Assembly (NCBI RefSeq): GCF_900090225.1
Contig: NZ_FMHY01000002.1
Span: 3,162,001-3,226,000, forward strand
DNA from: Micromonospora eburnea
GTDB lineage: Bacteria; Actinomycetota; Actinomycetes; Mycobacteriales; Micromonosporaceae
Length of the DNA: 64,000 nucleotides
Reading direction: 5' to 3'
The notes under the pieces were generated by a model, which worked only from the letters and a program-made list of their open reading frames with translations, had not been told where the DNA came from and ran no database searches. A program made the translations under genes and the position numbers. Shown piece after piece: positions 51,508 to 55,027 of the stretch; positions within the stretch are counted from its first letter, which is position 1, and each line of letters opens with the position of its first letter.

Positions 51508-53277
51508 ATGACCACCATCGGGTCGAATCGGGGTGTCGGGGCCGGTGTACTGGGCACCCTCCCCGACCTCCTGCGGATACGCAGCGAGAAACAACCGGAT
51601 GCGACCGCCTACGTGTTCCTGAGCGACGGCGAGACTCCGGTCGAGTCGTTGACCTACCGCGAGCTGTACGAGGCGGCGTTGGGCCGGGCCGCCGCGCTCG
51701 CCGAGAACGGTCTGTCCGGGCGTAACGCCGTGCTCGCGTTCCCGTCCGGCCTGGAGTTCATCCGCACCCTGTTGGGCTGCATGTACGCCGGGGTCACCGC
51801 AGCACCCGTGCAGGTCCCCCGACGCGCCGACGCCGTGCGCCGGCTGCGGCGGATCGTCGACGACGCGGGCGCGACGACCGTGCTCACCACCGGCCCGGTC
51901 AAGCACGCGCTTGAGGAGCAGTTCGGGCATCTGCCCGAGCTGACCGGGACATCCCTTGTGGATGGCGCAGAGCTGACCGGGCCGGCCGGTGAACCGGCCG
52001 AGTGGCCGATGCCCCAGGACATCGCGTTACTGCAGTACACATCGGGGTCCACCGGCGACCCGAAGGGGGCGGTCATCACCCATGCCAATTTCCTGAGCAA
52101 CGCGGCCGAGACGGACGCGTTGTGGCCGTGCGAGCCGGACGGCAGGGTCGTTTCCTGGCTGCCCATGTTCCACGACATGGGCATGTTGTTCGGTGTGGTG
52201 CTGCCCTTGTGGGCCGGTGTTCCGTCCGTGCTGATGGCACCCGACTCGTTCATTCGCAGGCCAGCCAGGTGGCTGGAGGCGATCGCACGCTTCCGCGCGA
52301 CACATTCCGCCGCACCGAACTTCGCCTACGAACTCTGCGTCCGCGCCGCCGTCGAGGGCCGCATGACGGGGGTCGGCGACCTGTCGAGTTGGCGGGTGGC
52401 CGCCAACGGCGCGGAACCGGTGCGCTGGCAGACCATACGTGAGTTCGTCCGGACCTTCGCCGGCAACGGGTTCGACCCGCGCGCCATGTGCCCCGGCTAC
52501 GGGCTGGCGGAGAACACCCTGAAGGCGACGGGCAGCCGCCCGGAACGTCCTACCCGTCCGCTGTGGGTTTCCCCGGAGGCGCTCGGCGAGGGCCGGGTGG
52601 AGGTCGTCCCCGAGTCATCGGCCGCCACCCCGCTGGTCAGCAGCGGGGTCACCGTCCCGGGCACGGTTGTGCGGGTCGTGGACCCGCGGACCCGGCGGCC
52701 GAGCCCACCCGACCAGGTCGGCGAGGTCTGGATCAGCGGCCCGTGCGTCGCCATGGGGTACTGGGGTCGCCCGCAGGACAGCGAGAAGACCTTCCGGGCC
52801 ACGGCACACGGCGTACCGGGCACGTTCCTGCGTACGGGGGACCTCGGATTCACGCACGACGGCGAGCTCTACATCACCGGTCGGCTCAAGGACGTGATCA
52901 TCCGCAGGGGCCGCAACTTCTACCCGCAGGACATCGAGCTGACCGTCGAGTCCGTCGCACCGAACCTGCACCCCAACTGCACGGCCGCCTTCTCCGTCGA
53001 CGACGGCATGACTGAACGGCTCGTGGTCGTCGTGGAGGTGGACGGCCGGGCACTGCGGGCGACGCCGTCGCCGGAGCTGGTCGAACGCATTACCACGGCG
53101 ATCTGGGACAGCCACCGCCTGACCGTCGACGACATCCTCGTCGTTCGCCGCGGCGCGCTTTCCAAGACGTCGAGCGGCAAGGTCCAGCGCCGTGCCTGCC
53201 GCACCCGCTATCTCAACGGGGACTTCGTGCCGGTGGCCCGCAACGCCCCGCAGGCCCAGGTAGTGACGCTGCCATGA
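51508..53277 (+). CDS. Fatty-acyl-AMP ligase (FAAL)-like acyl-activating enzyme
   Basis: An adenylate-forming enzyme of 589 aa that activates a carboxylic acid with ATP and passes it to CoA or a carrier protein. Seen: P-loop motif YTSGSTGDPKG, WLPMFHDMGM, APNFAYELC, PGYGLAENTL, TGDLGFTHDGELYITGR and KDVIIRRGRNFYPQDIE; the last form is typical of the FAAL branch. No carrier domain is attached. Start ATG 51508 follows AAGGGGA at 51490. Its stop overlaps the carboxylase start as ATGA, tying the two into one pathway. Possible roles are supplying an acyl thioester for carboxylation to an alkylmalonyl extender, or activating the starter acid. The first is favoured by the gene order. Substrate and final acceptor are unknown. 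Confidence 0.88.
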   Translation: MTTIGSNRGVGAGVLGTLPDLLRIRSEKQPDATAYVFLSDGETPVESLTYRELYEAALGRAAALAENGLSGRNAVLAFPSGLEFIRTLLGCMYAGVTAAPVQVPRRADAVRRLRRIVDDAGATTVLTTGPVKHALEEQFGHLPELTGTSLVDGAELTGPAGEPAEWPMPQDIALLQYTSGSTGDPKGAVITHANFLSNAAETDALWPCEPDGRVVSWLPMFHDMGMLFGVVLPLWAGVPSVLMAPDSFIRRPARWLEAIARFRATHSAAPNFAYELCVRAAVEGRMTGVGDLSSWRVAANGAEPVRWQTIREFVRTFAGNGFDPRAMCPGYGLAENTLKATGSRPERPTRPLWVSPEALGEGRVEVVPESSAATPLVSSGVTVPGTVVRVVDPRTRRPSPPDQVGEVWISGPCVAMGYWGRPQDSEKTFRATAHGVPGTFLRTGDLGFTHDGELYITGRLKDVIIRRGRNFYPQDIELTVESVAPNLHPNCTAAFSVDDGMTERLVVVVEVDGRALRATPSPELVERITTAIWDSHRLTVDDILVVRRGALSKTSSGKVQRRACRTRYLNGDFVPVARNAPQAQVVTLP

Positions 53278-54839
53278 GCCGCCCGACGACAGCCGATCGG
53301 CTCGCGGAGCTGGCCCGCCGGCGAGCCGAGGCCAGCGAGCCGTTCGACCAGCGGGCCGTGCGGCGGCAGCACGAGCGGGGCAAGCTCACCGCCCGCGAAC
53401 GGATCGACGGCCTGATGGACCCCGGCTCGTTCGTGGAACTTGACGCACTGGCCCGGCACCGGTCGTACAACCTGGGCATGGAGCGCAGACGACCGGTCGG
53501 CGACGGGGTGATCACCGGGTACGGCGCGGTGAACGGGCGCCGGATCTGCGTCTTCGCGCAGGACTTCACCGTCTTCGGCGGCAGCCTCGGCGAGGTGTAC
53601 GGCGAGAAGATCATCAAGGTGATGGACCTGGCCATCCGCACCGGCTGCCCTATCGTCGGAATCAACGACTCCGGGGGCGCGCGTATCCAGGAGGGGGTGG
53701 TGTCCCTCGCCCTGTACGCAGAGCTGGTGAAGCGGCACGTGCAGGCCTCCGGAGTGATCCCGCAGATCTCCCTGATGGCCGGTCCATGTGCAGGCGGAGC
53801 GGTGTACGCCCCGGCGATCACCGACTTTGTGGTGATGGTCGACCAGATCGCGCACATGTACGTCACCGGCCCGGACGTCCTGCGCACCGTCACCGGCGAG
53901 GAGGTGGACCACGAACAGCTCGGTGGGGCGCGCAGCCACAACACGATCTCGGGCAATGCGCACTACCTGGCCGTCGACGAGGCGGACGCCTTCGAGTACG
54001 TCCGCCACCTGCTCGGCTACCTGCCGGCCAACAACCAGGAGGACCCGCCCGTCTTCGGTCCGTCGCAACTGCCGGATTCGACCGAGGTGGACCTCGCGCT
54101 GGACACCTTGATCCCCGACGACCGCAACCAGCCGTACGACATGCTCCACGTGGTCCACAGCGTGCTCGACGACGGCGAGCTGCTCGAGGTGCAACCGCTG
54201 TTCGCCAGCAACATGATCTGCGGCTTCGGCCGGGTCAATGGGCACAGCGTCGGCGTGGTGGCCAACCAGCCGATGCGGCTGGCTGGCGCGTTGGACATCA
54301 ACGCCAGCGAGAAGGCAGCCCGGTTCATCCGCACCTGCGACGCCTTCCACGTCCCGGTCGTCACGTTCGTCGACGTTCCCGGCTTCCTGCCCGGTGTCGG
54401 TCAGGAGCAGGGCGGCGTCATCCGCCGGGGTGCGAAGCTGATCTACGCCTACGCCGAGGCAACCGTCCCCATGGTCACCGTCGTGACTCGGAAGGCTTAC
54501 GGCGGCGGATACGGGGTGATGGGCTCGAAGCACCTTGGCACGGACGTCAACCTGGCGTGGCCGACCGCGGAGATCGCCGTCATGGGCGGCGACAGCGCGG
54601 TGAACGTGCTCTACCGCCGGGAGCTGAGTGTGGCCGCGGATCCGGCGGCCGAGCGCGACCGGCTACGCGCGCACTATGAGGAGACGCTGTGCAGTCCCTA
54701 TGTCGCAGCGGAGCGCGGTTATGTGGACGCGGTGATCATGCCCCGGGAAACCAGATCGCAGGTGGCGCGTGCGCTGTGGGCGCTGCGGGACAAACGGGTC
54801 GCCCGGCTGCCGCGCAAGCACGGAAACATTCCGCTGTGA
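53274..54839 (+). CDS. Acyl-CoA carboxylase beta (carboxyltransferase) subunit, PccB-like
   Basis: A 521-aa carboxyltransferase that moves CO2 from biotin to an acyl-CoA alpha carbon. It looks like Streptomyces PccB throughout: ARERIDGLMDPGSFVELD, FGGSLGEVYGEK, GINDSGGARIQEG, GPCAGGAVYAPAITDF, VANQPM, VDVPGFLPGV, and the C-terminal KHGNIPL. The key difference is at residue 414 (codon 54513): the motif is GGGYGVMGSKHLG, whereas PccB has Asp (Asp422, a known acyl-chain specificity position) in GGAYDVMGSKHLG. The Gly should enlarge the acyl pocket. No biotin-carboxylase alpha subunit is encoded nearby, so a shared housekeeping one must serve. It overlaps both neighbours by 4 bp. Confidence 0.93.
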   Translation: MSRPTTADRLAELARRRAEASEPFDQRAVRRQHERGKLTARERIDGLMDPGSFVELDALARHRSYNLGMERRRPVGDGVITGYGAVNGRRICVFAQDFTVFGGSLGEVYGEKIIKVMDLAIRTGCPIVGINDSGGARIQEGVVSLALYAELVKRHVQASGVIPQISLMAGPCAGGAVYAPAITDFVVMVDQIAHMYVTGPDVLRTVTGEEVDHEQLGGARSHNTISGNAHYLAVDEADAFEYVRHLLGYLPANNQEDPPVFGPSQLPDSTEVDLALDTLIPDDRNQPYDMLHVVHSVLDDGELLEVQPLFASNMICGFGRVNGHSVGVVANQPMRLAGALDINASEKAARFIRTCDAFHVPVVTFVDVPGFLPGVGQEQGGVIRRGAKLIYAYAEATVPMVTVVTRKAYGGGYGVMGSKHLGTDVNLAWPTAEIAVMGGDSAVNVLYRRELSVAADPAAERDRLRAHYEETLCSPYVAAERGYVDAVIMPRETRSQVARALWALRDKRVARLPRKHGNIPL

Positions 54840-55027
54840 ACGGCCCGTTTCGCGTCCTGCGGGGAAACCCGAGCGAGGAGGAGCTGGCCGCGCTGATCAT
54901 CGCTCTGGCCACCCTGACCGCCGGCGAGAGTCCGGATGAACCCCGACGCGACCGGGTCCGATGGCTCACCCCGCCGGTGAGGCATCGCGGTCCGAACGCG
55001 TGGCGGCGCGGCCTCACCGCCTTCTGA
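54836..55027 (+). CDS. Acyl-CoA carboxylase epsilon subunit
   Basis: A 63-aa protein starting at GTG 54836, overlapping the beta-subunit stop as GTGA. It shows the actinobacterial epsilon-subunit pattern: FRVLRGNPSEEELAALIIAL at the start and a basic, Trp-containing end (PNAWRRGLTAF). These small subunits bind and stimulate the beta hexamer. The coupling to the beta gene means a dedicated carboxylase core is made from this operon. It closes the FAAL-beta-epsilon unit; 269 bp without a gene follow. Confidence 0.88.
   Translation: MNGPFRVLRGNPSEEELAALIIALATLTAGESPDEPRRDRVRWLTPPVRHRGPNAWRRGLTAF

Follow-up and report, generated by a model that had tools for sequence, protein, structure and literature searches.

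A ligase-carboxylase operon of Micromonospora eburnea as a probable CCR-independent source of alkylmalonyl-CoA for a modular polyketide synthase

Results

The stretch of DNA analysed here (the window: 64,000 nucleotides, bases 3162001-3226000 of a 7.17 Mb contig of Micromonospora eburnea) carries genes of a modular polyketide synthase (PKS) and, downstream of them, a three-gene operon on the plus strand. Its first gene (51508..53277) encodes a 589-amino-acid acyl-activating enzyme of the fatty acyl-AMP ligase (FAAL) clade (PF00501, 236 bits; PF23024, 50.6 bits), the second (53274..54839) a 521-amino-acid acyl-CoA carboxylase beta, or carboxyltransferase, subunit (PF01039, 628 bits), and the third (54836..55027) a 63-amino-acid carboxylase epsilon subunit (PF13822, 47.5 bits, cut-off 25). 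A first-pass annotation had called the same three genes with 4-bp overlaps, and the Pfam matches and coordinates bear it out: ligase and beta share exactly 4 bp (53274-53277), as do beta and epsilon (54836-54839). The ligase start at 51508 is the one chosen in that annotation; an alternative ATG at 51397 is open too. We asked which extender unit the operon might supply, and to which acyltransferase (AT) domain of the PKS.

Among sequences of the Protein Data Bank (PDB), the best match of the ligase was 7R7G (434 bits), aligned near full length over residues 13-575. All 18 PDB sequences matching at E<=1e-30 are named FAALs, acyl-CoA synthases, PKS proteins or adenylation-domain proteins. The near full-length alignment to a solved FAAL, together with the FAAL-type C-terminal domain (PF23024), places the enzyme in the FAAL clade. 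RevS is reportedly a member of this clade, yet makes CoA esters, and the window ligase would likewise act as a CoA ligase rather than form acyl-AMP only.

The beta subunit belongs to the PccB/MccB carboxyltransferase family. An excerpt of PMC5187497 names a Phe and an Asp of PccB as the two positions that differ in MccB, the stambomycin carboxylase subunit. In the same excerpt, the Phe is universal among carboxylases known to use four carbons or fewer, and the Asp-to-Ala change of PccB by itself permits binding of butyryl-CoA. The window beta lacks the Phe/Asp signature of propionyl-CoA carboxylase and has Val and Gly in its place. Val152 (codon 53727..53729, plus strand) aligns with the PccB Phe and with Gly161 of MccB, and Gly414 (codon 54513..54515, plus strand) with Asp422 of PccB and the corresponding Ala of MccB. 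Both changes of the MccB type are thus present, from Phe to a smaller residue and from Asp to a small non-polar one. These residues support the view that beta carries the altered acyl pocket of medium-chain carboxylases, and its substrate would be of medium chain length.

By sequence and by fold alike, the best PDB match of the window beta was 9J0C, which is 69-70% identical and likewise carries Val and Gly. MccB came eleventh in the PDB sequence list, at 697 bits as compared to 780 for PccB. It could be speculated that the product is ethylmalonyl-CoA or some other short extender instead of a medium-chain one, as the Asp-to-Ala change alone suffices for butyryl-CoA binding in the PMC5187497 excerpt and the Val found here is larger than the Gly at this position in MccB. 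We consider this quite unlikely, given the universality of Phe in the carboxylases known for four carbons or fewer (same excerpt) and the sharing of Val and Gly with 9J0C, the entry title of which concerns unusual extender chemistry.

We then considered the other carboxylases of the genome. No gene for crotonyl-CoA carboxylase/reductase (CCR) lies in the window or the cluster, and a genome-wide scan with TIGR01751 gave just two matches above cut-off, at 4.568 and 6.020 Mb; the earlier statement that the window is without a CCR therefore holds. Nine carboxyltransferase loci were found in the genome, one of which (L093) gave no alignment. Among the eight aligned homologues, the window beta alone has Val and Gly at the specificity positions, and both genomic PccB copies have Phe and Asp. 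Five biotin-carboxylase genes elsewhere in the genome are possible sources of an alpha subunit.

The two PccB genes (G000:C2:749665-751215, L098, and 4262180-4263730, L099) lie far apart and are 99.4% identical over 1570 bp, with a biotin-carboxylase gene near the second copy. A CCR gene adjoins a carboxyltransferase gene at G000:C2:4566455-4569107 (L100), beside another PKS region, and a similar pair occurs at 1.81 Mb in the congener G037.

To place the operon among its relatives, we examined the best 80 of 253 relatives together with their flanks, which extended 10 kb at most and less where a contig ended. The first specificity position is Val, Ile, Gly or Ala, with Gly or Ala at the second, in 27 of these 80 relatives, and Phe in the remaining 53. 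A 69-sequence tree joined all 29 non-Phe betas (the 27 loci, the window and 9J0C) in a single clade (support 0.971) that contained no sequence of the Phe type. The position of the window inside this clade was weakly supported (0.486 and lower).

The flanks of the two groups differ sharply. A close FAAL (at least 55% identity) was present at 20/27 non-Phe loci and at none of the 53 Phe loci; four non-Phe loci have only a distant FAAL of 36-37% identity (L006, L010, L018 and L032) and three have none (L009, L020 and L036). Similarly, ketosynthase (KS) or AT domains were found in the flanks of 22/27 non-Phe loci as compared to 0/53. At 26 of the 27 non-Phe loci, a start codon lies in a 4-bp overlap with the stop of beta. 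At 21 of them an open reading frame of 40-160 amino acids opens at this overlap, and 17 of these 21 match PF13822. The 4-bp overlaps are therefore not due to chance. These epsilon counts come from the search for overlapping reading frames combined with PF13822; a strict regular expression matched just 7/27. In seven loci a further gene family lies close to beta, one member of which reads as a biotin-carboxylase alpha subunit. Each of 36 congeners gave one match at E<=1e-230 with 68-71% identity, the level of this genome's own PccB (69%). Judged by this identity level, the cassette looks accessory among congeners.

Eight of the loci (L002, L004, L007, L012-L014, L016 and L021) have a small PKS close to the cassette, and a gene family common to these loci also lies nearby. 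Two members of this family were read, both of them from L012, and resemble FAD-dependent halogenases; a small L007 gene resembles a flavin reductase. These eight are probably halogenated pyrrole clusters, and they may be of the armeniaspirol type.

The PKS genes begin about 38 kb before the window and end at 50.3 kb within it; 15 extension modules were mapped by similarity. Gene F (37980-50273) opens with a loading didomain of an AT and an acyl carrier protein (ACP). Its loading AT (38034..38957, plus strand) reads GHSNGE and WPAH, and Trp replaces the conserved Arg of VALRSR. We take Trp at the position of this Arg, presumably the residue that binds the malonyl carboxylate, to mark a monocarboxylic acyl-CoA starter, and such a starter is predicted for gene F. 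One possibility is that the ligase activates this starter, while beta and epsilon merely boost methylmalonyl-CoA, which the five YASH-type ATs of the cluster possibly need. This explanation is unlikely. The Val/Gly pair is not that of propionyl-CoA carboxylase, an enzyme that the genome encodes twice already, with Phe/Asp, and 20 of the 27 related loci pair beta with a close ligase, across several PKS types. In addition, other possible starter genes lie upstream, for methylaspartate mutase, an ammonia-lyase and a weak AMP-binding match.

These upstream genes (L096:6040-13267, 6.7-14 kb upstream) sit between PKS genes and encode methylaspartate mutase E, methylaspartate ammonia-lyase and the weak AMP-binding match, together with a P450-like protein (called by reading) and a discrete AT-like protein. 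They possibly provide a mesaconate-derived starter or side unit; a literature search on methylaspartate enzymes with PKSs found nothing on the point.

The first-pass annotation had also reported two ATs with an FAAH motif in gene A, and these were found at 145..1074 (A.2, IMRWRLDGTDFAAH) and 5338..6276 (A.3, LMRWRLEGTDFAAH), both on the plus strand and both of the form M-R-W...D-FAAH. It had proposed them as the users of the operon's alkylmalonyl-CoA. FAAH differs from both YASH and HAFH, and both ATs belong to the operon's own cluster. Compared with the cluster's YASH ATs, they have one extra residue in the pocket loop, as does the thailandin butylmalonyl AT described in an excerpt of PMC8044089. 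We first favored the FAAH ATs as users for this longer loop and dropped them on the M-x-W motif and the fkb genes described below. The placement of the loop insertion shifts between alignments; a hand count from NGPRSV to the Asp gave one residue more in A.2 than in B.1. A second one-residue insertion (LIGERLS) also seemed special and was ruled out, as it is present in ordinary YASH ATs.

PMC4207774 quotes M-x-W for methoxymalonyl-ACP ATs, where it replaces the R-x-R that precedes the YASH-equivalent motif. M-x-W is present in A.2 and A.3 and absent from all other 14 ATs of the cluster; its spacing is one residue more than the published (X)5. A set of fkbG/H/I/J/K genes (L094:15802-19877, window coordinates about -44198 to -40123) adjoins the first PKS gene 40-44 kb upstream. 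It encodes an O-methyltransferase, an FkbH domain protein (TIGR01686, 343 bits, cut-off 147), an acyl-CoA dehydrogenase and a 3-hydroxyacyl-CoA dehydrogenase, and an FkbJ-like ACP reading frame that was called by reading only, without a family match. In the congener G037, an AT reads MLRWRIEGVDFAAH, with the hydrophobic variant L-x-W, and homologues of fkbK, I and H begin 0.2 kb past its gene. This AT grouped with A.2 and A.3 with support 0.98 in an AT tree built without one false hit (L173.2322) and without the loci in which window ATs recur (L133-L138, L146 and L148).

Some features of A.2 and A.3 fit less well with methoxymalonyl-ACP. In the PMC4207774 excerpt, two FK520 methoxymalonyl ATs have Leu after the active Ser; A.2 and A.3 have Gln there (GHSQGE) and lack a hydrophobic residue of the FK520 kind, which is a feature of two ATs and not a strict one. 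The motifs of methoxymalonyl ATs have in fact been described as poorly defined (PMC7489565). A literature search on the FAAH motif with extender units found no paper. Because A.2 and A.3 carry M-x-W, have an fkb set nearby and group with an fkb-linked congener AT, they most likely take methoxymalonyl-ACP, a prediction made from sequence. That both FAAH ATs use the operon's product is, on the same evidence, very unlikely, and this part of the first-pass annotation is probably mistaken. The fkb set sits outside the window and was thus invisible to its reader.

Two CoA-type ATs of the cluster have an unusual pocket loop. P1.1 (L095:8230-9135, 30.9-31.8 kb upstream) is the second AT in a PKS gene located 24-38 kb upstream and reads GPSQGE and RRMPADYASH. 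No other YASH-type AT of the cluster is as divergent: it has GPSQGE for GHSQGE, GKG for GQG, and PADYASHT. B.2 (16394..17311, plus strand) reads GQSQGE and RRIAGDYASH. Immediately before the Asp of DYASH, 26 of the 28 congener ATs fetched have Val, P1.1 has Ala and B.2 has Gly. An excerpt of PMC8044089 implicates this pocket loop, V742A among other changes, in the specificity of an erythromycin AT. We suggest, with low confidence, that P1.1 or B.2 is a likelier user of alkylmalonyl-CoA than the FAAH ATs, B.2 being the second candidate. Given its GKG for the usual GQG, P1.1 might be inactive.

We also looked for the user by way of the related loci. Near three other modular cassette loci (L003, L005 and L011), the stretches fetched contain one AT each of a DF[AP]SH type with an R-x-K carrier motif, and these form their own clade with support 1.0; the remaining ATs found near them are HAFH, except for one GRAFH near L011. 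Only HAFH ATs were found near L001, in a stretch that ends at a contig edge. Neither the FAAH ATs nor P1.1 grouped with the DF[AP]SH ATs. When A.2 was searched in 25 cassette genomes, the matches listed were mostly generic methylmalonyl-type ATs, the best at 57-59% identity, with no obvious partner by score. No single AT motif is tied to the cassette across PKS types, because the armeniaspirol-like loci show G-x-YAFH or HAFH motifs. Our AT finder required a GxSxGE motif and an upstream G[QLMK]G and missed ATs of L006, L007 (the first), L010, L017 (the second), L018, L019 (the first) and L024 (the second). The own-genome and congener run, which also dropped duplicates, covered the fetched loci: 30 of the 57 matches in this genome and, from about 100 matches listed for congeners, 28 ATs.

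Other genes around the operon include a stand-alone thioesterase gene (50550-51308, PF00975) 199 bp upstream of the ligase and, downstream, a regulator with a BTAD domain. The stretch past the last ACP of the PKS gene ending at 38016 also reads as a thioesterase (called by reading). Apart from the PKS genes, the window encodes a radical SAM protein at 58991-60310 on the minus strand (NF045502, 170 bits, cut-off 125).

Discussion

The most likely explanation for these data is that the operon is a CCR-independent extender kit. In the mechanism that we propose, the FAAL-clade enzyme would convert a free fatty acid, probably medium-chain or branched, to its CoA ester. Beta and the small epsilon, with a housekeeping biotin-carboxylase alpha, would then carboxylate this acyl-CoA at C2 to an alkylmalonyl-CoA, and its loading would fall to a CoA-type AT whose pocket loop is enlarged, P1.1 or B.2. 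We regard this reading as a whole, including the use of the product by P1.1 or B.2 and not by the FAAH ATs, as probable. As far as the enzymes go, the prediction of a CCR-independent alkylmalonyl-CoA supply is well supported, and here the original annotation of the operon stands, with the altered pocket, the usual FAAL neighbor and the lack of a CCR in its favor; what probably falls is its choice of the FAAH ATs as users.

Several observations weigh against this explanation. FAAL-clade enzymes often produce acyl-AMP for a carrier protein and not necessarily CoA esters, and seven of the 27 non-Phe loci are without a close FAAL. The Val and Gly of the window beta are not identical to the Gly and Ala of MccB, and MccB was not among the 69 sequences of the tree. 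The two CCRs elsewhere in the genome are a possible source of alkylmalonyl-CoA in trans. No AT of the DF[AP]SH type is present in the window's cluster by motif or in the AT tree, which leaves P1.1 and B.2 as candidate users. Finally, there is a frame change inside the KS domain of two PKS genes (window 32716-32809, and about 6.42 kb upstream in L096); these are either small assembly errors or broken genes, and the line may be broken or misread.

A broader account is more tentative, and we would not expect all of it to hold. It is that the line uses four extenders, namely malonyl-CoA, methylmalonyl-CoA, methoxymalonyl-ACP (at two adjacent modules) and a CCR-free alkylmalonyl-CoA taken by P1.1 or B.2, and that the operon belongs to a widespread clade, separate from MccB, in which the same pocket changes were reached independently.

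Carboxylases that accept unusual acyl-CoAs are tools for new polyketide side chains. The two-residue signature, usually together with an overlapping epsilon gene and a neighboring ligase, flags at least 27 loci that could be mined; the available part of PMC5187497 names only two other clusters as having the MccB residues. The FAAH ATs hold a caution: if FAAH is read as an alkylmalonyl motif the product is mispredicted, and the fkb genes beyond the window show the need to check the edges of a cluster.

Among known systems, the methoxymalonyl-ACP ATs and the FkbG-K enzymes account for the FAAH ATs of gene A, independently of the operon. Reveromycin RevS and RevT resemble the operon in pairing a ligase with a carboxylating enzyme to make alkylmalonyl-CoA; in contrast, the carboxylating enzyme RevT is a CCR (PMC5187497, in the part available). 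The armeniaspirol-type systems, with a halogenated pyrrole PKS and the epsilon subunit ArmN, share a 2-alkylmalonyl-CoA unit and an epsilon subunit according to an excerpt of PMC10142417, but they have a small PKS instead of a modular macrolide line, and the same excerpt has ArmL annotated as a CCR.

The stambomycin system was the precedent originally named for the operon. The parallel lies in the mechanism: according to the PMC5187497 excerpt, the Phe and Asp of PccB are replaced by small residues in MccB (SamR0483), a ligase gene (SamR0482) lies in the cluster, the alpha subunit is a housekeeping one and the cluster has no CCR. On the other hand, MccB has Gly and Ala where the window beta has Val and Gly, and the window epsilon overlaps beta, while none is described for stambomycin in that excerpt. 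Stambomycin is a precedent for the mechanism and not the nearest solved relative. The closest solved structure is 9J0C, which falls in one clade with the window beta. We compared it by its title ("Site-Specific Introduction of Sulfoxides and Sulfones into Polyketide Scaffold through a Relayed Chemo-Biosynthetic Strategy"), sequence and fold; literature searches for the entry and for the sulfoxide work found no paper on the point. The enzymes of the operon fit a known kind, a ligase with a medium-chain carboxylase that would work independently of CCR, and the cluster is a new setting for it.

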